From Antedon bifida (taxonomy: Eukaryota; Echinodermata; Crinoidea; Comatulida; Antedonidae): 64,000 nucleotides of DNA. The position numbers were made by a program, and so were the translations under genes. Position 1 is the first letter of the stretch, and every line of letters begins with the position of its first letter. Shown here piece by piece: positions 20,733 to 54,200 of this stretch. The DNA is taken from assembly GCA_963402885.1 (NCBI GenBank), contig OY727099.1, forward strand, positions 27,113,001 through 27,177,000. The letters are read 5' to 3'. The notes below the pieces were generated by a model. It searched no databases. It was not told where the DNA came from and saw only the letters and a list, made by a program, of their open reading frames with translations.

Positions 20733-20879
20733 TGCTCTGTCTACACTATCAAACTTTAGGTGACCAAAAAATGTGATGTGCCTATATATGGACATGATGA
20801 TGTCATATCACTATCATATTTGGGCACATCACAATGTTTTTGTCAAACTAGTTTGATGCTATAGTGTAGACAGAGCTTC
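20733..20879. mobile_element. palindromic MITE, family A, copy 2
   Basis: Left end TGCTCTGTCTACACTATCAA and right end ATAGTGTAGACAGAGCTTCA, with the internal GATGTCATATCACTATCATA signature. It lies in the non-coding region upstream of delta-catenin. Confidence 0.85.
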
Positions 20880-31450: not shown

Positions 31451-31843
31451 TATCATTTTATTGAATAGAAATTGTCTTTCTATTTCTATATTTTAGCATT
31501 TGGTTCTTCTCTAAAATATTCAACATCAGAAATGAAAAAAACAATAAATTTCTTGAAAATCAAAAGCATTTATTATACTGGCACAGTATCATGATTTCCG
31601 ATAGTACTCATTTATTATTAATTATTATTGCACTTAATTTTTGATAAAAAAATAAATTAATTGGTTGATCAAAACAATAATAGAACATAATTATGTATGA
31701 GGCAGCACCAAATGACAACATCTGATTTTATACAATTACAAACAAGCAGCAAATAAGGCATCATTCAAAACTACAACTAAACAAATTAATAATTTTTCCA
31801 TCATTTTACCAGCAGATTTGGAGATTTAATATTCAGATTTTTT

Positions 31844-32696
31844 TTAAGGTAATTCTAGCAGGCTATGTTCAGAATAAAATGCTTGCACTATATCATACAC
31901 TGGCATCATTTGTTTAATGCATTCGCCGACGATTTCTTCTGCTGTCTTTTCGGAAGTTGGTGACGTACAAAGTCTGCCCTGTAGCGTCTTCTTATTTGGT
32001 AGAGTACGCATTGCTAAGTATGCAGTATTTCGTATAAGCCAACTGTGATAATTAGCAATCGTACTTGCATAGACGTTGGACGCCATCTTTGGTACGCTAT
32101 CATTTTCATTGCTTTCAATAAGTTCCTTGAGGAATGAACTTATAAAAAGAAGAGCTCTGTGTAGACGTAGTAGTGTCCTGGAACCAGATAAAAGCCCAGC
32201 TGAATTTTTCCCGATTGTTAATTCATTGTCTAGTTCAAACTTAACCATAGTGTGAACGGACTTAAAGTGGTCTGACGTTGCCTTTTGGTGTTCTTTCAAA
32301 ATTCTTATCTTCTCTTTCAGATCTGATGTGATGAATGAGAATATTGTGCCAAGATGTTCAAAAACTCTAAAAATATAATATATAAAGAAAATTAATGAAA
32401 AACAAAAACTAATTGTAATTTCAATACTAATTTCAGATGTTAGATCGTAATTCATATTAGACCCTATTTATAGTATGTCGATTGAGACGAAACGACTTTG
32501 CCATCCTCACAGAGAGGCTTTTTCCCTTCTTAAACAAAATCATTATTAAGCCTAACTAGGCCTAGAACTAATTTTACCTCGTTAACTCTTCGTAACCTCG
32601 TATGTAGTGCTCTAGAATTATTTCGTTTTCGGCTGATTTACATTTCTCGAATTCTTCTGCTACAACTTCTAAGCTAAATCCTTCTTTTGAAGCCAT
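31844..32696 (-). CDS. CPTP: ceramide-1-phosphate transfer protein (GLTP domain)
   Basis: CPTP moves ceramide-1-phosphate between Golgi, endosomal and plasma membranes using the all-helical GLTP fold. Two exons, 32696-32578 and 32366-31844, give 213 aa (human CPTP 214). The alignment runs end to end: LGTIFSFITSD, SGSRTLLRLHRAL, YHSWLIRNTA and the C-terminal EHSLLELP all match. The five residues that hold the phosphate headgroup in human CPTP (Asp56, Lys60, Arg106, Arg110, His150) have counterparts here at about Asp55, Lys59, Arg103, Arg107 and His147, which favours CPTP over the glycolipid-binding GLTP. A longer ATG-initiated frame beginning in the intron at 32455 is not the start, because the acceptor at 32367-32368 joins in phase to the upstream exon. 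Confidence 0.95.
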
Positions 32697-34003
32697 TATT
32701 TTTTAGATACTTTTTTCCGCCAAAATCCTATTTCCACAATATTCTTTGTGAACTTTAAACGCCACGCCCCCTTTTTAGAGTTATTCCATTTCTAAAAGGG
32801 GTGTTTCAGTTACATAAAAATAACTGGCATATATCATGTTTTTCTTTATTCTTTATGTTCGTTATGTTCGTAGTTTTCGATCATTTTAGATTTTATATAT
32901 TGACACACACACAATTTTTCAAAACAGTACAAACATAACTTTTTGATAATAAACTGTATAAATTTATTGTAAATATAATCTCTCTATCTGCAGTACTGGT
33001 ACATAAAACAATACAGTACATTACATTAACATTTATTCAGTGATTATATCACAAGTCTTGTGCAAATATACAGAGTGTCATTCATTTGTGATTAATTTTA
33101 GAATTAATCAAATTAGTTATCAGTTAATTCTTGCTTTTTTCATCAAATCCAAATGAACAGCAATGTTACGCTGTTATGCAACAATGGGATGATGACATCA
33201 TCATAATCTGTCCGCTGAAAATCCACTATAATGCCAAAAGAAAATGCAACACACCACATCATTCAATTGTGGCTGTACTTTATCGTTTTAAGCTTTTTCA
33301 GTTAATTAAATAGTTTTTTATTTGTATTTCCATTGAGATCCAGCCAGTGATACTCACAGCATTGTCATTATTTAAATAGTATGCGTTCCTGGAAGATCTT
33401 CCTCAATAAAACCTAATTATTCTTTAAAAAATACTTTAAAAAAACGATTGTCTTTTTCACTTTAAATGCTGAAATGAATGTTGGTATTGCACTTGTTTTA
33501 ATTGCTAAATTTAAGTCTAAATTTAAGTGATTGTCAACGATTTTCAAGTTTTTACTTTACAAATTTGTAATATACTTCCATAGTGATAAGTAACTTTTTT
33601 TGTAGCCATCTCACATTTACATTACCCGATGCACTTTTATATATGCCAGTAGTATAAAGTTCTGTCTACATCATCAAACTTTATGTGACAAAAAAGTGTG
33701 ATGTGCCCAAATATGGTAGTGATATGACATCATCATGTCCATATGGGCACATAACATTTTGTTGTCACATAAAGTTTGATAGTATAGACAGAGCTTCAGT
33801 AATAAGATTTCATTCCTTACAGTATTATTTCAAAGCTGAGTATTACTGTACATTCAAATGTCTACATCTAAAATATATCAGATACATTTTGTATCCATTC
33901 CGATCCTTCAAATCTTATTTAAGTGGTTTGTTGTACTAGCTAGTCATACAGCTTTTAAATAAGCCGAATTAACCAAATTTGTATGCCACCACTAACTACC
34001 TCA
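32697..34003. other. intergenic region between CPTP and HPS5
   Basis: It holds the CPTP promoter side (a CpG-containing stretch near 32755-32780), MITE copy 4, and a minus-strand AATAAA near 33317-33322 that may serve HPS5. No other gene was seen. Confidence 0.5.
33655..33797. mobile_element. palindromic MITE, family A, copy 4
   Basis: Both arms carry the AAACTTTATGTGAC version of the subterminal sequence, so this copy is more symmetric than the others. Ends are TAAAGTTCTGTCTACA and TATAGACAGAGCTTCA. It lies between the CPTP and HPS5 genes, possibly in the HPS5 3' UTR. Confidence 0.85.
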
Positions 34004-37000
34004 CTATTTCTTCTTTGAATAGAAACAAACCATGCAGAACTTTTCAGGAATGCATTCTGTGTGAAATATATGACCTAAAAAAACAAAGAAAAGGTCAAAT
34101 TTATTAACACTATGTCATGTAGCTCAACACTAATTTACACAATTTTGTACTGCATAGCCATCATTTAAAGATATTTTAAATGAAAAAAAAATACAAATAA
34201 TGATCAATAAAACTGACAACAAGACATACCACAAGGAAACACAAGAAGACCTGGAGAAGAATCAGACACTTGCATGGTGACTTGAAGTCCACAAACAAGA
34301 CAATCCCTGAAATATAAACATTATTATCATTTTAGTTTATTCACTTATGACAAAATATAATCATTTATTATCCAATTTATTAGCCATTTGAAGCACATGT
34401 TTAGATGATGTTTAACAAAATTAGGAGAATAGCATAGCTGCTGCACATTATCAACTTCCTATCTCTCCTTTAATTATACTTACGTATTCAAAGACACATT
34501 AACACCCCAGTGACTAAGTGGCTCTTCTAAGAAATGCTCTCTACCAGAAAGTGTTCCCTTAAAGCTTGGCTATAAAAAAAGATTTTACATCATAAGTTGA
34601 TAATTAATTTAGTTCTTGTGCAAACTATGGACAAAAGATAAACCTTAAACCTTTACTGTTAAGCATGTACTTACTTCTTTTGGCTTAGTAGTTGATCCTG
34701 CTAATTGGCATCTATGCTCCTCTTTCACAAACTGTTTCAGTTGCTGTGGCAATGCATTCTGCCGTTTGGACCAAAGGTAAGAATCAACCTTCTCCAACAT
34801 TGCATGCGTTAACAACCTACGATTAAACAGTTTTATTACAATTGTTATTTCCATTTGAAAGATGTCTTCATCTTAATATATATTCATATCAAGTTTTGTA
34901 GTATGCGAATTAAATAATCCCTCTTACCTTTGATTTCTATCTATGACTATTCCCATAATGCAATTGTGGAAGAATTCAGGAGAGATTGTATTCTCTGGAA
35001 AGGTAAACTGTTCTAAGAGATCTATAGCAGTCTGAGGACCTACAGTTTTAGCCAATAGATGAACAGTATTTTCCCATGTGATTGTATTTGTTAGTTCTAC
35101 TACATGATTGGTTGAATCAGCAGTATCACTTGGCAACAATGTTGCATTTTGTTCAATTTCAAAACATTGCAGACACTTTATAGATGTTTCACTTTCTCTT
35201 TCTTGAAATGATTTAAGTTGTGAAATACGCTCTAAGATATAACGCCATTCTTCAGAAGATGTTGGTGATAAATCTAGAAAAAAACAAACAAAACTATGCT
35301 AGTATGGTATCTGGTCATATTGGCAAAATGACGAACTACCTGGTAACCTAATATGGAATATTAACTCGCAGTTATATTCCACTGTCTTACAATAGTGCGA
35401 CATTTTACTGTACTGTGCAGTCAAGTGTAACACATCACTGATATATGTGCAGACCCTTTCATACTGTAAAGTAATAGGCCTACAGGTTAAATTTGGATGG
35501 ATAGAAACGATTCCAAAATGAATATTGCCTCATTGCCCTTATATTAGTGAAAAAAGGTTAAAATATCTATTACTAAAATTAATACTAATAAATAATACAT
35601 ACTTTTGCTTTGCATGATATTAACATCTCCAAGACACCATATAATATGTAAGATTGTCTCCCTTGGTAAATAAGCACTCAATTCCAAGCATCCACGCCAA
35701 TAACTTAAAAAACAAAGGTTTAATTAATCATATAAAAAAAATTATTTTATAGAAATTTGAGTAGAGATAAAATTAAACAAAATTAACTTACCCACGATCT
35801 TTACACATGTCGGCCATCTTGGGTGACGCCATTTCAACGATTAATTTGTCTAGTATCTGTTTGTATTCCCAGACTACAGCGTGAGATCCACATCTATCAT
35901 TCAAGGGTAAAGGTAATATTATTTCAATATTTTAATTACTACCGTTAATTGTGTTGCTTTAATGTATCAGTAGCTAATTAAAATTAGCGTGAACATGCAG
36001 GTAGCAACGTCAGAAGCAGCCAGCATATTTCTTGTTATTTTAATCATGAAATATTATTGAGTGAATTTACTTTCTGTAGCATTATTACAGTATAATAAAA
36101 TAACTTTCTTTATAACAATTGAAATAATTGAAATATTTGTTATTTATTTATACTGGGTAACCTCTTCAGTCACAGACTGGTCTCCCAGAGGGCCCAGTTA
36201 TGATCAGTGGCTGTGATGTACTAATACTACTAATACAAACAATAGTGTAATGCAGAACCATTTTAAACTAGCACTAAGCCACTCCCTTTTGAACTGGATT
36301 GCTTTTACTGTTCATTTTACTTTCTATCACTATGCCTAGGCTACAGTAACTTCTTACATAAATCCACAGTATTATCACATTATACAGTTAAGAATTGTAG
36401 TTTCTATAAGAATTATTTATAACAGAGATTCATAGAGCTAAACAAATTGTGCAATCACCCACTGATTATCAGATGATTCAATCATGGAGGGATTATTTAT
36501 TATTCTAAATAATTCCTCCATGATTGAATTAACCAAACTTACTTGGGAGCCTTGCAACTACAAATAGACATCTTGGTTGCTATGGCATTACAGTTAAATA
36601 TAGCATTAACAAGGTAGTCAGCTACACCATTATCATCTATAACCTCAGCTAAATAGTTGCAACTGAAATATAAATATGTATGTCATCATTTTAATGTCTT
36701 GTAGTTGTGTTGAGAGTGAAGTGAAGTTGTCTGGCCATAAAGGACAAGAACTGAATAGAGAGGGGTTGAACTGAATAGAGAGGGGTTGAACTGAATGGAG
36801 AGGGGTTGAACTGAATAGAGAGGGGTTGAACTGAATAGAGAGGGGTTGAACTGAATAGAGAGGGGTTGAACTGAATAGAGAGGGGTTGAACTGAATAGAG
36901 AGGGGTTGAACTGAATAGAGAGGGGTTGAACTGAATAGAGAGGGGTTGAACTGAATAGAGAGGGGTTGAACTGTATATAAACACTGTTGATGGTAGTTTT

Positions 37001-40000
37001 GAGTGTCTCCTTTTAATAAATGACTCTTTAAATTTAAAATGTTGTACCTATTTCCAAGATCTTCTTTAAGCTCAGCTGCGATGTACTTAGCGAACAGTCT
37101 TTGTGCTTTCTGTGGCTGGTATATCTCCAAAAACTCTTTCACTTCCCAAATTCTTAAGTCAGAATCCACAAGCCTTTCTACCAATTTCTCTTCACTGTCA
37201 ATCAATCTAAAAGATTACATTTTCACATTAAATAAATATTTCTGGTTGTAGAAAGAGAAATCTATTACTTGATCAACAATATGATATGGGCGACTACTTT
37301 AAATTTCGGAAAATATGTTGTTCTTACGTCAAAATCCTGTAGACATCTTTGTAATGCTTGCGTTGTTGTATTTCTCTTTTCTCACATAAAGTACTTTTAC
37401 AGTTACAATCTTGCTTCTCCCCAAAAGAATCTTAAAACACAAACAATAGGGTAAACTATGAATACAGTGATCAATATTATAACATAACTGAATAATCTAC
37501 AAAACAAATTAAACACATTTCTATTCCTGTTTTACTATTAAAATACTGCAGTTAGAAGTTTACAGAATAAATCAAATAATAGAATATTATATTACTACTA
37601 ACCAGCAAATAGATTGCATATTTCACTGTAAGTCTTCTGCCTTGAACCTTGCCATGAACTCATCACAACTCTAATTCGATTAATGTCCAAAAAATGTGAG
37701 AATTGTCTAATAAATCTTGCTGCTTTCACGTCTAACGTCTCTCCAGAACATTCAGATGATTTGGAGGCAGAACAATCTGCTGTTTCAAATGCTAGTGATG
37801 GATTCTGATTGGTTGCTGATATTTCATTTGATTGGTTGAGATTTAAATGTTTAAGATCTGGAAACAATTGAATCTCAAAGCACATCATAAGTAGCTCAGA
37901 TGCATGATCATGGAGAGAGTCTCTCAATGGGAAATCCAAAGAACTGCCAACATTATGATCAGTAATTATATCAAGATTTGAAAGTGCTGCATCACCGTCT
38001 GTTTCTTCTTGTAAGTGATTCTCGCATTTAGTCTGCATATTTTCTGTAACTAACTTCACTACCTCATTTTCTTGGCTCTGCTCACTCTCTTTAGGAAGAC
38101 TTGTTTTGTCTTCTTCTGGTAGTTGATTGTCACTTTCAATCGATTCATTTTCTTTTACTGCCTGTACCAAATTATCATGTTCAACCGACTCAATTTTACT
38201 GTCAAGGATCGTTTGGTCTTCAGTTTGTGTGTGATTTTCTGTAAGCTCATTTTCTTCATCAACACACGTTACCTCTGGTTTAAAATGCTGATTATTTTCA
38301 TAAGCTGTTTGCAGGTCCAACAACCATTGCTCTAACACTTCACGGCACATATTAATATCGTAGAGTATTAGAGGATGCTGTAATTTTATCCTTTGAAACA
38401 AAAATAAAGTTATGATGGTTTGATAAAGATATTAAAGATTAATGACTTCACATATCACATTAAACATACAAGACAGCCTGTAAAACGTAAAGCAATCAAT
38501 CGTACCTGTATTTGGATTTAACCTTTAAAATCCACAAAAAGGTAATTTAAAACTTGAATGGTTACTTCATAGGCCTAATTAATCATACAACGTACATACC
38601 CTAGAATTATAAACTTATAAAAGTAATTTCTCATGTTTTTAAATCTATTGTAGGAATTTTAAAAGAAGAGGAGAGATTCCAACCTTGTAGAGATGGTAGC
38701 TTCTTCAAATGGTGAATAGTTTTCTGAGGTTTCACACGCTTTCACCAAAATGTCACCTGTGTCAGTTACGTCCATTGGTGCTACAGGTGAAACTTGACCT
38801 GATGATGACATCATTTCATCCTCAACTGTGATTGGTGATTTCTTATTAGAGTCAAGTTTAGCTTTTACAAATTCTTTTGTTTTTGAGTAAGTTGAGCTGA
38901 GGCTGGAATGTACAAATACCTAATTAGTTTAATAAAACTTCCTAATGGGATTTATAATCCCATAAATACAAAAATATTTCAATTACAAGTTAGTTTTACT
39001 TTTCTAATTATAGTTTTTCAAATTGCTTTAAGCTCTGTCTACACTATCAAACTAGTTTGACAAAAAAAGTGTGATGTGCCCAAATATGGTAGTGATGTGC
39101 CCAAATATGGTAGTGATAATATGACATGATCATGTCCATATATGGCCATTTTTTTGTCACATAAAGTTTGTGAACAGAGCTTTAGAATTGCTTACCTAAC
39201 TTTGACAGCTGCAAACGGAATTGAAATCTGACGTTGCCCCGAACCTTTTGTTTCATCTGACTCAAAAAGCTTTTCAAAGAGTGGGCTAGTTGATCTTCTT
39301 GACGGAGACTTGTTTGATAAATTCAAATTAATTGGTCGTGGCTTCAGTGGCTCATCTGCTTTCTTATCTTCAACTTTACTTACTTTATCTTTTGATTTTT
39401 TCACTTCACCTGAAAGAAAATATTAAACTAACATGTTCAAGTGGTTTAAAAATTAGCTACAGTATTACCAAAATGTTGTTAAAAAGTCGTAATACATATT
39501 AAGGGCTTTTTATTAGCAAAATTATACTATGCAAAAGGTTGAACGAACTATTATTGCTGATTCCCATAAAATGTTTCTGAAACAATGTACTTATTAAGAT
39601 AGTAATTTAGAAGGAGTACCATTTCCTTGTTAATTAACAACCTTGATGAGACAAATTAACTTGAGAAAACAAGAATGAAACATTACCAATTTCCGCTACT
39701 CTGCTTTTAGTTTTACTCTTCTTTTTTCTAAGTTTTCTTGAAGGTTTTGGACTTGTAGACTCATAATTAGACATCGATTTACTTCTTTCAATTATTGTCC
39801 TTTTGTCATGGTTACTTGAACCTGAGAAGCTTTCAGTCCTTCGCATCACAGGTTCATATGCACATTCAGCAAACGAATCACTTTTCTCGTTTTCATTTAA
39901 ATCTACAGTAACATTCTCAGTTTCGTTTCTGTCTCCAGTTTCGTTTCTGTCTTCAGTTTCATTTACAGAATGAGCAGTAACTATGACGAGAGGAGTTTTC

Positions 40001-43000
40001 GATAATACCACATCACAAAAATCATCTACAATCAATTGTTCATCGCTAGACTGTTTTGCTATGTCTGCAATTATGTTTGTTTCGGCAATTATCGTATTGT
40101 GACTTTTTGCAAGTTCTGGTGATGTTGGTTTAAATTCAATATCATCGTGTTGAATATCTGTGGACCTTGGGCAATCTTCTCCATTGATACTTTGATTGAT
40201 ACTAACTGTTTCTTGATTTTCAGCAGAAATCACACCACCTACTCTGCTCTTCTCACATTTAGTTTGTGCTGCACTTTCACTATCCTCATGGCTTGAAAGA
40301 CATTTCTGGAAATTTTCTTCGGTTAATTCAACATTTTGTTGCGTAATCAAATCTTTCTTAAAATCATCTTCACATACTTGAGATATACTTGGGGTCACTG
40401 CTGAGCCTCCATTAAGTTGTTGCTTAGTTTCAACACTAAGTTCATTATGATTACACTCTTTTGTATCATTAAGTACATTATCAACAAGATTTGGGGAAGC
40501 AGGAAGGGAATGGTCTTCACTCATACTGGAACTTTGCAGCATTCTCTCCAACGATTCCTCACTACTTCTACGACTTTTAACGAGGTAGATCCCCGACTCC
40601 AATCGTACACTCTCAGCAGACTCAATGCTACTTCTTCTACTACTCGATCCAGAATGTCCCTCTTCCATAATGAATTGCTCTACTTGGTAAATGACATCAT
40701 CTAGAGAGCCAATCAAATCTTCCGTCTTTTCAAGTTTGGTTAAATTTTCTTTGATGTCTTTTAGAAAGTTAACGGAGACAAGTCTTTTTGATTTTATTGT
40801 GGTGAGGTTTTCTGAGAACTGGTGACAAACGGAAGCACAGAGTTTCCAAGCTTTTTTGATGAACAGTCGCACGATACATCGTTCAATCGTCAAAAACGAC
40901 AGTTTATTTATCCTGCTTTGGTTGTCTAGGTAGTAAATTTCAGATTTATAACTAGACAGGTACTGTATACCTTAAAAAAAAACAACAAACATGGGTAAAA
41001 AATACAATATTGTAATTGTAGAGAGCTAATGGATGACATAATGTTTATAAATGCAATACATTGAGATTTACTCACTTTTAAGCTCGGTCTACACGATGAA
41101 ACTTTATGCGACAAGAAATGTGATGTGCCCATATGGACATGATGATGTCATATCACTACCATACTTAAGCGTATCACTACCATATTTGAGCACATGAAAC
41201 TTTTTTGTCAAACTAGTTTGATAGTGTAGACAGAGCTTTAGGAAATATGTGGGATACAGCTCAGTGATGGATCTAGGAATTAGAAATGATTGGAGGGCAA
41301 ACGTCCAGAAAGGTCCTACAAATGAGGGCCTGAACCTAATGTATATACCAGGTATTCTAATTTTAGGAGTAGGAGTATTAGTATACCAAGTATACCAACT
41401 TTATTCACATCATCATACATAAATAATACAATACAATACAGTATGTATGGGTGTGTGAAAAGGAGCCAAAAAGTAAGTAAACTGAATTTATTATAATTAA
41501 AGCCCTAACTGGAAAAGAATGTTTAATTTGGATGGCATACCTGCAGGTGGCCGTGACCAAAGCACTACCTTACCAGTGCTAGTATCCAGGAAATAGATGG
41601 CTTTCTCATTCCATGACATTATGAACTGTTCACTGCCAAGAGAAATAAATTTTACATATTCATATTTTTCATGATAAATTTAGGTTTTACATAATAATAA
41701 TAACTTCATTCGATTCTCATTTTAATTTAATCTGCTTAGGAAACGCATCAAATTCAGTATACTTACACTTTTAGCAAACATGGGAAATTGAGTGCCTGGG
41801 GTGGATGATGATCATCAGTTTCTGGGTATCGCTCATCCTCTCTAACAAAAAGGAAAATTATAATAGAATTAAATCAAGTTCATTGAAAGAATGATGGATA
41901 ATCCAATATATAAATTAAATAGTTTATTATTTATTCTTTATACTGGGTAGCCTCTTCAGTCAAAGACTGTTCTTCCAGAGGGCGCAGTGTATAGTACTAT
42001 GATGAATTCGTGACAGTGGCTGTGTGTACTAGTACACCAGGTAACCCACTACTCGTCTCGAAAGATGTACTAGGTTCTTTAAAGTGCACATGGTAATTCA
42101 AAATAAGTAAGATATTACTAGCAAACGTTATAAACTTACTGAAAATGAATGATTGCTAGGTCAGGTATTGCAAGTTGTCGTTTAAACTGGTGTGTCGCAA
42201 CAACCTCCCCCTTCAAATTAGCCTGCACAATAAGTATACAAAAATTGAAATAAATTATTGTGATTTATTTAGTATTTATTATTAGTACTAGGAATTTAAT
42301 GCTAACCAAACTTACAGACTGTGTTACCATGTATGCATAAAACAAAGTTAACCAATGTAACGTTATATCACATAGGTTTGAGCGCATCAGAACAAGTTAA
42401 AACATATTTACGAGGTTGGTTCATATAAATATAAATGCAAACCTCCCAAAGTCTTGATCCTGGACGCGCCGAGTAAATGACAACATCCTCTGGGTCTCTA
42501 CTCTTTAAATAGAAACAAGCGCCATACTGACCATCTCTAAAAAAAGAAAAAGATGTATATAAATCATTACATGACAATGATACAGAAAGAGTGGTCAGAG
42601 TTCAAATGAAGGGGGTCAGAGTTCAAAAAGAAAGTGGTTTATGCTTCAGGATTGGTATACAGCCTGTTATATAACTAAAGGTGTTCATATTAAAATTGTT
42701 TAATTAAAATGCAAAATATCTCACCTTAGTTTTTTGCCAACAGAGTAAAACTGCTGCCTAAAAAACAATAACAAATACAAGTTAATTAAAAAAACAATAA
42801 AAATAGATTAGCTGACTAAATAATAAATAATATTTTCTTGATATAGAAGTTACTTTACATTCATCAAGATCGATACAGAATATACTGTATATTATTGTAT
42901 GTATTTTTTTATTTTATATAAAAAATTATTGTCTCTATTTTCAAAATTTCATTAGACTAATATTTTATTCTATTTTATAAAACACATTTTGAAGAGACAA

Positions 43001-46000
43001 TTAAATGTTATAATTAGCATTTGTTGATTTTAAAGAGATGAATAATGTACGAGTAATGTTTTAAAGTAACAAATAATGACGTACCTGTTTATATCAAACA
43101 ATATGGTTTTTACCATATTTTAATACAGTAATAGTAACATATTCCAATATATTAGCATAATATTCTTTACAAAAACTGTTTACACTGGCGTACTGTATTT
43201 GACCTTTAAGTATTCTTAGTTACCTTTTAATATTGCAAATATGACATTTATTGTGCGACGAGACGAGTAAGAAGTCTTTAATGAAATCAAGTTGAACAAT
43301 TGCTGAATCCAAGCTGACAATAGGAGCCGTTGGTAGTTGTAAAAGTCCAGACACCTACAAAATCAAAATATCAAATTACACTCATTGATCTACTGGATCA
43401 TTCTTGAGAAAGTTTGTCTTTGAGTTCTTTTGAATTCTTTTGAGTATTGATTGATGAATTGATTGATTGCAATCAATATCAATCAATCGAAACTCCCTGG
43501 TTAAAGCAACTTACTTACCTTTCTGCTGTACACATTAGTTAAAGTAACTTTTCCCTTATTGTCCCCTGAATATAGTCTCTGGCTGGTATCATTCCATTGT
43601 AGACATGTGATGTTGGATCCTTTATGGGCGAATGATGTCATCAACAATTCTGGTTTCTTTCGGTTCACAACATTTAGTTGCCAGATGATGATATAGCCAT
43701 TACTTTAAACAAAAACAAAGAGGAGACTTTTATAATAATATTTAAACACACACAAACTTTCAAACATCATTCGGTAGTTCTAAAAAAACATTTAGTTGCT
43801 AGATGATGACATAGGCATTACTTTAAACAAAAACAAAGAGGAGACTAATAATATTTTAAATGCACACAAACTTTCAAACATCATTTAGTAGTTTTAAAAA
43901 CATTGTGTTGACAGATGATGATACAGTTATGTATTGTATTCTCTATATTTAAAGATGTATTGTCCCCCAAAAACATGAAAAATGAAGAATAATTAAGTCA
44001 GACTTTGGATATGTTATTTTGTAGTTTTGATAAAGTTAATCACTTCCATAGAAAAGAAAAACGAAAAAAAAAACTGTTTTCACTTATAAAATGACAAAAT
44101 AAATGGTTAAATTCAACCAAAAATCCATTGGATGGCAGCCAATTTGACCATTTTTTGCTTTAAATTGGATTTTTTTCAGGTAAATACATTTTTTTTTGAT
44201 CCAATTTTTGGTCAAAGTGGATAACTATTATGTTACATTAAAATGGAATATTCAACAATTTTTTTTTAAATTATTTTTTCAGGCGGACAATACATCTTTA
44301 AGGTTAGGCATATATTTTTAAGAGGTATTTTTTAATAGAAACTTAAAATACTTTGTTGTGTCCTGAATGTGTCCCCTGAAGTTTAGATATGTACCTTTTT
44401 GAAGATGTATTTTTTATACAATTGAAACTTAAAACACTTTGTTGTGTCCTAAATAGAGGTGTTCCAAAGGGCAGGTTTTACTGCATTCTGTAGATCATTA
44501 TTATACTTTCTACTCTCTAGACTAGACCCTTCTTTTGTTGTACAAATATTGCTGTAAGTCGGAATGAATAGTTTTCCTTTAATAATATTACTGGTATGAC
44601 AAGTTATGTCAATACATGATGGTATTATGATACAACTGTCACCAACAATTACTAGCACACTAGTGGTCTATATTGGTTATATTTTATTTACAATTATCCA
44701 TTAATATAATACAAACAAAATAAACAATATGTCAATGTATTCAAGAAGATCGAGAATTTAGAAATGAAAGGAAATCTTTACTTTCAAAACAATATTACCA
44801 AAATTTTACTAGACAAACAACAAATTTTTTTTTAAAAGTTGTTATTATTTTCTTATTATACTCTACACTTAATAATCTTCATATTAACTGTGTAACGGCA
44901 TAGCTTGGTATGATAAAGTCAATTGTTGCATTGTTTCAATGATGTGTCCAAATTCAACATAGGGAGTTTGGATATTAGAGAAAATTAACTGATTTCTCCA
45001 TGATTGGGGTTAAAGACTTGTATAACTTTAAAAAGGGTTGGGTTCATTCACACACAACACTACTAACTTACTTACATTATGTTAACACACTTATACTACT
45101 AGGTTCACTCAACAGGAAACGATAATTTGAAAGCAAATATTATTAGGAAATAATTAACTTACTTGGTAGATAAGCCAACAAGATTATCATCTGGTGCAAA
45201 TTTCACATGGGTTACTGAGCCCTCCTATAAAACAAGTAATTATTAAGCTCTGTCTACACTATCAAACTTTATGTGACTAAGCATATGCACCCATATAGGT
45301 ATGGACATGATGATATCATATCACTACAATATTTGAACACATTTATACACTTTTTTTGTCAAACTACTTTGATAGTGTAGACAGAGCTTTAGAAAACATT
45401 ATAAATGTTAGTTTTATTCAGTTCATTCAACATAAGAAATAACTTGTATCAGTAACTTAATGATACACTACTCGGAATTAATATCTGCAAATTTTATGAT
45501 GAAATAAATATTATAAATTGATAAAAGTAATACATTACAGTACAAGAGAGAGTTTCAAATTTAACCTGAATATAACAAATACATTGGTAGAATTATGACG
45601 TCATCAATAACATTATATTAATATTGATAAAACATAATGCAAATATAGTTGCTTTTTTGGCATTCAAGTAGCATGGTATAAACTGGAATCTTGAATAAAC
45701 ACCGGTAGTGAAGTCAACTGATAGTTACTATAATGTATCCGTCAATGACCAAGTATCCTTAGAAGAAGACGGCCAGTAAGAACAGAAATAAGAGCACAAT
45801 TTTTTTATTATGAAACAACTAACCTTGTTTACTATAACTTGTAAGTATTTGTGAGTATCTCTTTGAAAAATATAAAGTCCACCAGAGGTAGCACCAAATG
45901 CAATAAAACGTTTTGACAAGGCCACACATGTGTACTGAAAATCAACCATAGAATATATTAACCAAAATAATTTTTTTTCTCAAAAATCTCATTCTTTTAC

Positions 46001-46543
46001 CTTTAATATCTTACAAACATTTTATTTAGAATGTTGCAGTGTATATACATTTTATACCCAAATATATATACAACTCCCAGTGGTATGTGAATGTTATACT
46101 TATATGGTTGAATGCAATACAGATAAATCTCAGTAAATCTCTGTCTACACTATCAAACTAGTTTGACAAAAAAGTGTGATGTGCCCAAAAAAGGTAGTGA
46201 TATGCTTAAATATGGTAGCGATATGACATCATCATGTCCATATATGGGTACATCACATTTTTTTGTCACATAAAGTTTGATAGTGTAGACAAGGCTTTAT
46301 TTAGAAATGTTACAGTGTGCTTACAACTTTTACACCCCAATATACACAACTGCCAGTGGTATGTGAAAGTTATATGATTTCAATAGATAAATTTCAGTAA
46401 TTGATACTAAAAGATAATGAGTTTACTTTAATCCTGTCTGTAGCCTTGATGGGAAGGAGGAGTTCTTCTGTTTTTCCATTGTCAAGAAGTAAATGGCTGG
46501 CACTCCAATTCATTCCGTTTGATTGGCCTAGTGGTTCTGACAT
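34004..46543 (-). CDS. HPS5: HPS5, BLOC-2 subunit, complete, with an extra C-terminal RING-H2-like motif
   Basis: HPS5 forms BLOC-2 with HPS3 and HPS6 and directs cargo to lysosome-related organelles. 24 coding exons: 46543-46427, 45934-45824, 45224-45163, 43702-43519, 43354-43224, 42757-42725, 42536-42443, 42222-42140, 41841-41767, 41632-41541, 40970-39687, 39409-39196, 38902-38684, 38390-37603, 37430-37328, 37206-37048, 36662-36543, 35893-35792, 35703-35603, 35273-34928, 34816-34675, 34569-34484, 34306-34230, 34074-34004. Total 4,794 nt, 1,597 aa (human 1,129). Residues 1-340 form the beta-propeller (DGQYGACF, YSARPGSRLWE, IERCIVRLF match human). About 400-1160 is a Ser/Glu-rich, probably disordered expansion with the conserved SSRRSSIES/SGIYLV block. 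The C-terminal half is helical and includes MLEKVDSYLWSKR, where human HPS5 nearly ends. Here the chain continues to a C-x2-C-x19-C-x-H-x2-H-x2-C-x5-C-x2-C motif at residues 1551-1591. Confidence 0.93.
36155..36240. repeat. dispersed repeat, copy 1 (TACTGGGTAACCTCTTCAGT family)
   Basis: It shares about 60-80 bp with 41935-42025 (TACTGGGTARCCTCTTCAGT, AGACTG, CCAGAGGGC, CAGTGGCTGTG). Both copies are in HPS5 introns. The family is not identified. Confidence 0.65.
36477..36528. repeat. near-perfect hairpin next to an HPS5 splice donor
   Basis: Two 23-bp arms (TTCAATCATGGAGGGATTAT... and its complement, one mismatch) flank a 6-nt loop, TTATTC. In the HPS5 transcript the hairpin starts about 14 nt after the exon 36662-36543 boundary. 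Confidence 0.9.
36751..36970. repeat. 20-bp minisatellite, 11 units
   Basis: Eleven copies of CTGAATAGAGAGGGGTTGAA, identical except for one G variant at 36791-36800, lie in the HPS5 intron between exons 37206-37048 and 36662-36543. On the minus strand the array has no stop codon in any frame. Confidence 0.95.
39028..39184. mobile_element. palindromic MITE, family A, copy 5
   Basis: Ends are TTAAGCTCTGTCTACACTAT and AACAGAGCTTTA. The internal GATGTGCCCAAATATGGTAG is duplicated. The element stops about 11 bp from the end of HPS5 exon 39409-39196, just past its GTAAGC donor. Confidence 0.85.
41078..41240. mobile_element. palindromic MITE, family A, copy 6
   Basis: Ends are TTAAGCTCGGTCTACACGAT and ATAGTGTAGACAGAGCTTTA, with a partly duplicated ATCACTACCATA core. 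It is intronic, just 5' (in transcript terms) of the large HPS5 exon 40970-39687. Confidence 0.85.
41935..42025. repeat. dispersed repeat, copy 2 (TACTGGGTAGCCTCTTCAGT family)
   Basis: Homologous to 36155-36240 in the same orientation. It lies in an HPS5 intron. Confidence 0.65.
43740..43925. repeat. tandem duplication containing the start of HPS5 exon 43702-43519
   Basis: A unit of about 120 bp comprising the first bases of the exon, its acceptor and upstream intron is repeated at about 43790-43890, with a third partial trace at 43895-43925. The copied exon start preserves the GTTTAAAG acceptor but carries an in-frame TAG in place of the exon's Trp codon. Confidence 0.85.
43953..44297. mobile_element. 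345-bp TTAA-flanked MITE
   Basis: Termini AGATGTATTGTCC and GGACAATACATCT are perfect inverted repeats, directly flanked by TTAA on both sides (43949-43952, 44298-44301). There is no coding capacity. The TTAA target and small size suggest a non-autonomous piggyBac- or Sola3-type element. It is in HPS5 intron 3. Confidence 0.8.
45243..45391. mobile_element. palindromic MITE, family A, copy 7
   Basis: Ends are TTAAGCTCTGTCTACACTAT and ATAGTGTAGACAGAGCTTTA. In transcript orientation it ends only about 17 nt upstream of the HPS5 exon 45224-45163 acceptor, so any distant branch point would lie inside the element. Confidence 0.87.
45672..45775. repeat. dispersed repeat of about 105 bp, copy 1
   Basis: It shares GTAGTGAAGTCAACTGATA-like sequence, the GTCAATGAC block and CTTAGAAGAAGACGG with 62553-62646, where a copy abuts the 3' end of the retrotransposon. 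The family is unidentified. Confidence 0.75.
46024..46400. repeat. about 105-bp direct duplication split by MITE copy 8
   Basis: Segments 46024-46135 and 46298-46400 are homologous (both from ATTTAGAAATGTT... through CCCAGTGGTATGTGAA... to CAGTAA). The MITE sits exactly between them. Confidence 0.8.
46134..46299. mobile_element. palindromic MITE, family A, copy 8
   Basis: Ends are TAAATCTCTGTCTACACTAT and ATAGTGTAGACAAGGCTTTA, in reverse orientation relative to most copies (AAACTAGTTTGAC on the left, GTCACATAAAGTTTG on the right). It lies in the intron after the first HPS5 coding exon. Confidence 0.85.
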
Positions 46544-51263: not shown

Positions 51264-54200
51264 TCATAACTTGACAGCTTTCCTAAATTTCGCTGACCGT
51301 GACCTTGGGTTTTTCTCGACCTCCTTCTCTGATGGTTCCATAAATTTATCGTCAAAAGACCAAATTTTAATTGGATTTTCATGACCACTTTCTGTATTAT
51401 TTGTAAAATTGTCTCTCTTTTTTTGATGTATACTTTTACCAGGTTCCATTGCATGTCTTCCCTGCAGGATTCTTTTCACAATTCTGTCCTCCAACGAGTG
51501 AAACGTCAATACGGCAAGCCTGCCTCCAGGTTTCAAAAACTTTGATACCAAATTCAAACCGTTACTCAACTCTTCTAGTTCATTATTCACAAATATTCTT
51601 AATGCCTGGAATGTTCTTGTTGCTACGTGCATTTTTCTACCTATCATGTCTTTTGATTGGCTGGATTGAGTGTGTGTAAAGGCAAACGAAACAATATTCG
51701 CTAATTCCGATGTCGTTTTAATCGGGTGGTATTTTTCTCTGAATTCAACTATTAATTGTGCAATTTTCTTAGCCTGTCTCTCTTCTCCGTACGCCTTTAT
51801 TATTCTGGCAAGGGTTTCAACATTCAATGAGTTTACGACGTCAGCCGCTGTTGGCTGATTTTCATGTCTGTCAGAAGAAAATAAAAATCATTATTTCTTT
51901 TTTGTAGATCAGAGAGCAAAACAGATAAGTAATTAAATAACAATCATTGTCTGTTTCAACAATAATAATATATTTTCCCAATTACTTCTCTCTAAACAAA
52001 ATATTTGTTTTATAATTACCTGTTATCTCCATCCATTCTCATATCAAGTGGTCCAGACTTGCTCAGTGCAAAGCCACGCTCTGCTGTATCAAATTGCATT
52101 GAGGAACAGCCGGCATCAATGACGACACCATCTAAAGTGCCTTCTTGGAGACTAATATCCTTAGCAACCGTATCTAATTCAGAGAATCTTCCTAACATTG
52201 GATGAAGTCGATCTCTGCAAAACAAATTTTTTCATAAAATGATAATCAAATAAATAAAATATTGATTTTCTTCAATCTTTCAATGAACAAAAATAAGTTT
52301 GTTACTTCTTCTCAGCCTTAAATAGAAGTTTCTTTTATAAACTATGAATATAAAAAAAGTTGAATTTAAAGCAAAAAAATAAGCAGAAACAATCAGCATC
52401 CTACAATAAGAGGAAGCCTGTGTGGGAGGAGCCATACATTTATCACTCACTCATCAGCTATCACTAGATATAGATAGAAATGTACTACTTTAAACACTCA
52501 CTTTTAATTGTCACAAATGTACTTATATGTATACAATATATTGAGACTGAGATTTTAAAGGGGGATTCTGGGTTTAAAATTGCTTTTAAATATCGTTTAT
52601 TTATTAAATAAAAAATATTATAACAATATAGACATGTCAGAATGAAGAAGTAATAACGAGAAATTAAAAAAATTAAATTTTATATACATTTTAGGGTAAA
52701 TTCATGGAAAGTCTGTTTTTCAGCAGCTTAGGGAAGCTCATTAATATTCATGAGATATTCACAAAATCACGTCATCAGTGGATTCCAAACTCGCGACAAG
52801 CTTGTACGTTGTGTTTGTCAACTTGAATCTCTAGCTCTCTCCCCCGTCAAACGACGACCACCCGATCACTGTGAAATACATTTTTTGTAGATTTTCTAAG
52901 CTAGGCCTAAAGTGTAATAATAACAGTAGTAGCATATATTTATTTGACATTTAATGAAATACAAAATTTACTAGTACAGATTTACGGAGTCATAAATTAT
53001 ACTATTTTTATACCTCGAATAGTACAGATCGTATATCGGCTTTACGTACTAGGCTAGGCCTAGCCTAAATCATTTTATTCATGGGTGAGAGCCATTTCTG
53101 ACTAGGGATTCCATGCCACGATGGCTACGTTAAAACATTGGGGCCATCATGGGCCTAGCTAGACTACTACTAAACGATTGGCCCATAAATAACAAAACTC
53201 AGTGGATTCCAAACCCATCCTATCAACCAAACTCCTAAACAATCTAAGCCTAAAACGTTCTACAAAATCGGCTGTAAATATTGAGGCAAAACGAGGTCCG
53301 ATCGCCTTCCGCACGTATGGTGTCCCGATCGTCTAATAAGTAGGCCTAAAATAGGCCTAGTTTACTCTCCAAAAAAGCGGATACTGCATCAAGCAAGTAG
53401 ACCAGGTAGTAGGAAGGAGACCTAGCCGATCCGGCCCAGTTAAAAATTGAGCTAGCTAGTGTAGTAGACCCTATGCGAATTGATACTACCAGGCCTTTTA
53501 CTATAGGCTACACTTTTTAAAATTAGCAATACTTATGTTTACAAATATTCCAACTCTCTCATTCGAGCTATATTATCTATACCATTCCGGTAGGTCGAGT
53601 CGACCTTCAATCAAATACTGTACATCGTTCATGTTGTGATTATAGACGGGGTATACTCGACCCGACCAGTTTGGTATTGTATATTGTATCTGCTTATCAC
53701 GTGACGATGCCAGGCATGGGCAGAGAGTGAGCACGTGTATCGTCGTCTCGCTCTCCTCGCTCAGGAATGTATACGTTACGCTTCATTGATTTTGAAAGCT
53801 TTCCCTAAGTCAGTGCGAAAATCGGCAAACGTAAAGTGCAAACATATCTAATTTTTCACTGTTTTGATGGATTTTCATAAAAAATTGACTTTATAAATGG
53901 GAAGACCGACTAAAATTACATCAGATAAGTATAATTTTACAAAAGTAATTGATATGGTTAATGATAACGAGTCGTCGGAAGATTGACCATTTCACGAATT
54001 TCCTATTCTGTAACCACAGTGTGATTTTGCCGTAGCTGCACTTGTAATCTGGCCTCATTTCACAGCCTTCGTTCTGCTTCACTGGGCGCTTATATAAATT
54101 GAAACTTTTACCGTTCAAGAGAAAAACAAATATATTTTACATTTTTTGCTATTCATTTTAAACCCGGAACCCCCCTTTAAATAAACATGAGATGAACTCA

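Follow-up and report, generated by a model that had tools for sequence, protein, structure and literature searches.

A candidate RING-type zinc finger at the C-terminus of HPS5 in the crinoid Antedon bifida and its likeness to the Vps8 and Vps41 fingers

The formation of pigment granules and related organelles depends on HPS5. In a 64,000-nucleotide stretch of the Antedon bifida genome (contig OY727099.1, positions 27,113,001 to 27,177,000; hereafter the window), a minus-strand gene running from position 46543 to position 34004 is, judged by its spliced frame, the gene for HPS5, a subunit of the biogenesis of lysosome-related organelles complex 2 (BLOC-2). Its reading frame extends into a C-terminal motif of the RING type, for which the closest Pfam models appear to be those of the tether proteins Vps8 and Vps41. 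We favor, with a probability of roughly 0.52, an explanation in which HPS5 would be a Vps8/Vps41-like arm equipped with a structural RING clamp for the assembly of BLOC-2. The molecular role of this complex is unsettled, and that of its subunit HPS3 in organelle biogenesis is called unresolved in an excerpt of one publication (PMC6639074); a Vps8/Vps41-type RING at the end of HPS5 would provide a concrete and testable model in which BLOC-2 is built like the tethers HOPS (homotypic fusion and protein sorting) and CORVET (class C core vacuole/endosome tethering).

The HPS5 gene and its terminal exons

The 24 coding exons of the gene (34004–46543) splice into a single open frame of 1597 residues followed by a stop codon, and each of the 23 introns is of the GT-AG type. 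Exons 1 to 10 and the start of exon 11 (40927–46543) encode an N-terminal beta-propeller (residues 20–342) that scores 376.8 bits on the Pfam model Beta-prop_HPS5 (PF23756; cut-off 34, E = 1.3e-112), and exons 17 to 20 (34928–36662) encode a helical tetratricopeptide (TPR) domain (residues 1265–1462) with 74.2 bits on TPR_HPS5 (PF23758; cut-off 27, E = 1.2e-20; profile positions 202–384 of 385). The gene was identified as HPS5 because both matches exceed their cut-offs; the two families are also those of human HPS5. When the genome to which the window belongs (315.6 Mb in 27 contigs) was searched with the TPR_HPS5 profile, the HPS5 locus in the window was the single match.

Exon 21 (34675–34816) carries the sequence MLEKVDSYLWS and the residues after it. 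We take human HPS5 to end within this MLEKxDxxLWS stretch and to be devoid of a RING; this end fits the TPR_HPS5 match, which stops at residue 1462, one position short of the end of the profile. An earlier note on this DNA, made from the sequence alone, had proposed three further in-phase exons beyond this point, and the spliced frame does run on through exons 22 to 24 across GT-AG introns. Exon 22 (34484–34569) contributes a linker of about 28 residues ahead of the finger. Exon 23 (34230–34306; residues 1549–1574) then encodes the first half of the motif with C1, C2, and C3 (TDCLVC...LLVFPCG), and exon 24 (34004–34074; residues 1575–1597) the second half with H4, H5, C6, C7, and C8, the C-terminal end, and a TAG stop codon; both exons were recovered in the genome search. 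They are separated by intron 23 (34075–34229; GTATGT...TTTTTTAG), a phase 1 intron that interrupts the core, as the same note had seen, and lies within the codon for the glycine of C-G-H, directly after the third cysteine.

Residues 1551–1591, divided between these two exons, read C-x2-C-x19-C-x-H-x2-H-x2-C-x5-C-x2-C, and the residue numbers, coordinates, and spacing reported earlier for this pattern are correct. Eight putative ligands hence stand in C3H2C3 order at the spacing of a RING-H2 finger. We consider the presence of a RING-type motif in the HPS5 reading frame confirmed at the sequence level, and we infer that this segment folds as a RING. With the Pfam matches, the motif completes an order of propeller, helical domain, and RING in HPS5.

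Could exons 22 to 24 remain unspliced to HPS5 or be part of another gene? An error of this kind in the gene model is, in our estimation, very improbable. In the 774 bases from 33900 to 34673, the real sequence offers two combinations of GT-AG splices (gaps of at least 60 bases) that create a loosely defined RING pattern, and not one of 5704 dinucleotide shuffles does so. A codon score trained on HPS5 exons 1 to 21 assigns the joined exons 22 to 24 a coding-like value of +0.25 bits per codon in frame, as compared with −0.03 and −0.20 in the other two frames; this value was attained by none of 5000 intron windows and by 1.8% of 32382 stop-free intron windows of 25 codons. For exon 22 the in-frame score is +0.46 (other frames: −0.13 and −0.32). 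Exon 24 taken by itself speaks for the error: its in-frame score (−0.26) lies below those of both other frames (+0.02 and −0.22), so that codon use gives this exon alone no support; what supports it is the motif together with its splice site. The error is also favored by intron 21, which if retained would add nine codons and a stop (open reading frame 34645–34872). Judged by eye, however, the splice sites of exons 22 to 24 are near consensus. The frame of the finger ends in a stop codon, and among open frames of at least 130 amino acids the next downstream gene on the same strand is a separate one, a GLTP-domain frame at 31844–32467; an assignment of the finger to a neighboring gene was therefore ruled out. 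Collectively, we regard the HPS5 gene model as spliced, including its predicted C-terminal finger, as nearly certain.

The Pfam models for HPS5 stop short of the finger. Among the papers listed from the literature searched, which covers few subscription papers or preprints, no title or abstract opening mentions a RING on HPS5, and the terms "HPS5" and "RING domain" came together in one paper only, a dengue expression study. We did not find the finger described on HPS5; the corresponding domain of other animals may already appear in further databases. Among 25 matches of HPS5 residues 1–435 to entries of the PDB, none is named as a BLOC-2 protein. The propeller piece gave five pattern matches and no relatives among IMG/VR contigs, and 21 pattern matches and no relatives among prokaryote genomes; the absence of relatives was expected, since these collections are viral and prokaryotic. 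The finger can serve as a sequence marker for the ends of invertebrate HPS5 proteins, a region in which a pair of small exons may escape gene prediction.

Family resemblance of the finger

We scanned the finger, excised as a segment of 50 amino acids, against 24736 Pfam models. The best was zf_RING_Vps8 (PF23412; 28.5 bits, E = 1.4e-6, cut-off 27.3), followed by zf-RING_Vps41 (PF23555; 25.3 bits, E = 1.2e-5, below its cut-off of 30.3) and by the generic models zf-RING_UBOX (25.2 bits, E = 1.6e-5, cut-off 25.2), zf-RING_5 (24.7 bits), and zf-RING_2 (23.5 bits). The first place of the Vps8 model is clear; the second place of the Vps41 model is a near tie. Fingers from the same genome provide a yardstick for these scores: that of VPS8 reaches 58.7 bits on the Vps8 model and 27.3 bits on the Vps41 model, and that of VPS41, taken without its last two ligands, 35.0 bits on the Vps41 model and 19.8 bits on the Vps8 model. 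The HPS5 finger is hence about as near to the Vps8 and Vps41 models as is the true member of the respective other family.

For comparison, we scored 150 of the 414 zf-RING_2 candidates of the genome, fetched 30 of them, and from the resulting 24 segments chose eight controls of the RING-H2 type. Their best model was zf-RING_2 in seven cases and zf-C3HC4_2 in one. Among the families shown (the best 25 in some of these scans), the Vps8 model appeared for four of the eight controls (at most 14.9 bits) and the Vps41 model for six (at most 22.2 bits). The other tether fingers of this genome behaved differently from that of HPS5: the VPS11 finger matched zf-C3HC4_2 best (35.1 bits), the Vps8 model not being among the families shown, and the VPS18 finger, partial and named by eye, matched zf-RING_11 best (23.7 bits; 14.8 bits on the Vps8 model). 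Given these low Vps8 scores, what the HPS5 finger resembles is the Vps8/Vps41 type in particular rather than tether fingers at large. The Vps8 model was also run over the genome exon by exon, a mode that under-scores split fingers; the HPS5 exons are not among its matches. Of the 22 candidates listed out of 32 scored, only the VPS8 exon (29.5 bits) lay above the 28.5 bits of the HPS5 finger, and the next scored 22.8 bits. Judged by profile, the finger would thus be of the Vps8/Vps41 type.

These ranks must be weighed against a lineage-specific gain of the RING, either through exon shuffling or with an E3 ubiquitin ligase as its source. HPS5 would then have an active or inactive ligase finger without special ancestry in common with Vps8 and Vps41. 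We consider such a gain unlikely, although it retains a substantial minority share of our belief. Profiles put the Vps8 and Vps41 models first for the HPS5 finger, as opposed to generic models in all eight RING-H2 controls. In RING-type E3 ligases, a Trp in the loop between C6 and C7 and a Pro after C7 serve the binding of the ubiquitin-conjugating enzyme (E2). Both residues are present in all eight controls; the HPS5 finger has neither of them (CIPEKFCMVC), and it also lacks the loop of 10 or 11 residues found in the controls. E2 binding by the HPS5 finger therefore seems unlikely. Gain is favored by the two small, separate exons that carry the finger, by the failure to find a RING on the partner protein HPS3 (see below), by the generic models trailing that of Vps41 by as little as 0.1 bit, and by pairwise comparisons (BLOSUM62; z from 500 shuffles that kept Cys and His in place). 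In the latter, the HPS5 finger gave z values of 3.6 with VPS41, 2.8 with VPS18, 2.3 with VPS8, and 0.5 with VPS11, of 4.5, 3.9, 3.8, 3.5, 2.2, 2.2, 2.1, 1.5, and 0.8 with nine E3-like fingers, and of 2.9 with one partial RING; three of the nine E3-like fingers thus lie above all four tether fingers, and the test did not separate the two groups.

The pairwise scores and the near tie of the Vps41 model also count against the explanation that we favor, as do several further results. The profile search of the C-terminus that the earlier note had called for turned out mixed: the Vps8 model came first and exceeded its cut-off in the excised finger, but it dropped to 25.6 bits in the last 124 residues and to 21.9 bits in the full protein, both below 27.3. 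A phmmer search of the finger against PDB sequences gave no significant match; E3 ligases ranked at the top (synoviolin, E = 0.033), and two Vps18 chains followed at E values of 0.25 and 0.33, neither significant. A common intron as a mark of shared ancestry was ruled out as well, because the position in HPS5 differs from those in VPS8, VPS41, VPS11, and VPS18 of the same genome. The finger of VPS8 is interrupted 5 bases upstream of the HPS5 position, before C3; that of VPS41 has one intron between C2 and C3 and another five residues past C6; that of VPS11 has its intron just before C6; and the finger exon of VPS18 seems, with the splice read by eye, to end four residues past C6. The HPS5 and VPS8 fingers differ between C6 and C7, too, where five residues in HPS5 stand against a long loop in VPS8. 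The likeness to VPS41 extends to the core, which reads IIVFYCHHVFHEECLP in VPS41 and LLVFPCGHIFHTECIP in HPS5. A transfer from this genome's own VPS8 or VPS41 was rejected, given that both genes retain their fingers.

A proposed role of HPS5 as a tether arm in BLOC-2

In an excerpt of a study of CORVET (PMC11187117), Vps8 is described with the order of propeller, solenoid, and C-terminal RING that HPS5 also has; in Vps8 and Vps18, the long C-terminal helices and the RINGs come together as a bundle and then a semi-symmetrical RING pair, and mutations in this helix-RING region take the complex apart. The same excerpt notes that yeast Vps41 does not have the RING that human VPS41 carries, and it reports ubiquitin ligase activity for HOPS/CORVET RINGs, which is a further point against a purely structural finger. 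In the explanation that we favor, the HPS5 finger would be a structural clamp rather than a ubiquitin ligase. The finger and the C-terminal portion of the helical domain would jointly attach HPS5 to another BLOC-2 subunit, either HPS3 or HPS6, in a manner modelled on the Vps8/Vps18 RING pair that holds CORVET together. HPS5 would then represent the arm resembling Vps8 and Vps41 in a tether that has lost its finger in mammals. We rate this clamp mechanism at about even.

Matches to the HPS3_C profile in the same genome fall at C7:25799027-25809801. Along the 10 kb examined, the strand of these matches showed no RING core, and the last matched exon (profile positions 471–501 of 503, 19.4 bits) runs into a stop codon and was taken as terminal. 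A second RING on HPS3 was accordingly dropped as a candidate, and an HPS5-HPS3 RING pair looks unlikely, a result that weighs against a close copy of the CORVET arrangement. It is for this reason that the partner surface is proposed to consist of the helices of HPS3, or of HPS6. The HPS6 model PF15702 had no match in this genome and none in the control genomes either, so that it is uninformative on absence; HPS6 is described as a propeller/solenoid protein in the part consulted of PMC10193976.

An inherited finger need not act in assembly. It might be a remnant that has been retained because it helps the C-terminus to fold or because it binds a cargo or Rab adaptor. We judge this reading improbable. 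If mammalian HPS5 is indeed without the finger, BLOC-2 assembles without it, and 88 residues with neither a Pfam match nor a predicted helix separate the last residue of the TPR match (1462) from the first cysteine (1551), which also tells against a finger acting jointly with the helical domain. The eight putative zinc ligands are nevertheless intact, and this speaks for a finger under selection.

As to its origin, inheritance of the finger from a common ancestor with Vps8 and Vps41 is plausible, and mammals would, by inference, have lost it. The earlier note had gone further and read the domain order as support for a shared origin of BLOC-2 and HOPS/CORVET subunits; architecture and the rank of the Vps8 and Vps41 profiles speak for this claim, and introns, pairwise scores, and propeller matches do not. 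The propeller and helical domains of HPS5 match HPS5 models and not those of Vps8. Side matches of the propeller to Vps families reached 27.8 bits (Vps11), 22.4 bits (Beta-prop_Vps41), and 21.3 bits (Beta-prop_VPS8); the latter two lie below their cut-offs, as compared with 376.8 bits on the HPS5 model, and other WD40 families equal or beat the Vps models, with up to 36.7 bits. The order of propeller, solenoid, and RING is also not unique to HOPS/CORVET, since it occurs in GATOR2 subunits (WDR24, WDR59, MIOS); these and subunits of the intraflagellar transport complex A (IFT-A) combine WD40 repeats, a solenoid, and C-terminal zinc domains. The HPS5 finger scores only 15.6 bits on zf-RING_16, which we take to cover GATOR2, and no zinc-finger model of the intraflagellar transport proteins is among its 15 listed families. 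BLOC-2 subunits HPS3 and HPS5 are described as structurally like IFT-A WD40/TPR proteins in an excerpt of PMC9674347.

A propeller of the HPS5 type is found once more in this genome, in a gene at C14:16804926-16808103 (L036; 59.4 bits on PF23756, in a piece joined by eye). This gene is probably TECPR2, a name given by resemblance, and unlike HPS5 it has no TPR_HPS5 match there.

Viewed more broadly, BLOC-2 might be a third tether of the HOPS/CORVET lineage, with HPS5, Vps8, and Vps41 all derived from a single ancestor of propeller-solenoid-RING build; early animals would have had the finger, which would have been kept in this lineage and lost toward mammals, and in the human complex something else would have replaced the RING clamp. 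We offer this scenario tentatively, as somewhat short of an even chance.

Other features of the gene and its surroundings

Past the HPS5 stop codon, a motif scan found nine candidate polyadenylation hexamers of the ATTAAA/AATAAA type down to position 31574; the first two (minus strand, 33317–33502) are ATTAAA from 33502 and AATAAA from 33322. Intron 16 contains a minisatellite (36751–36970) built from 10 identical 20-base units and interspersed near copies; it is open in three frames and thus creates spurious open reading frames. A short repeat resembling a miniature inverted-repeat transposable element, with inverted ends (GTCTACACTATCAAA ... TTTGATAGTGTAGAC), is also present; each of its arms occurs six times without mismatch across the window. 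It occurs within HPS5 introns and elsewhere in the window (near 20739, 22958, 39037, 41217, 45252–45382, 46143–46290, 50806, 51210, 60269, and 62048) and, by eye, at other loci of the genome.

HPS5 is flanked on the same strand by the above-mentioned frame at 31844–32467, whose GLTP domain scores 118 bits, and by a frame at 51264–51887 with an MraW-type methylase domain (162 bits). Elsewhere in the genome, contigs C7, C10, C12, and C16 hold clusters of many close-set RING genes, TRIM-like by eye; among the RING fingers read, several are near-identical (L067–L069).
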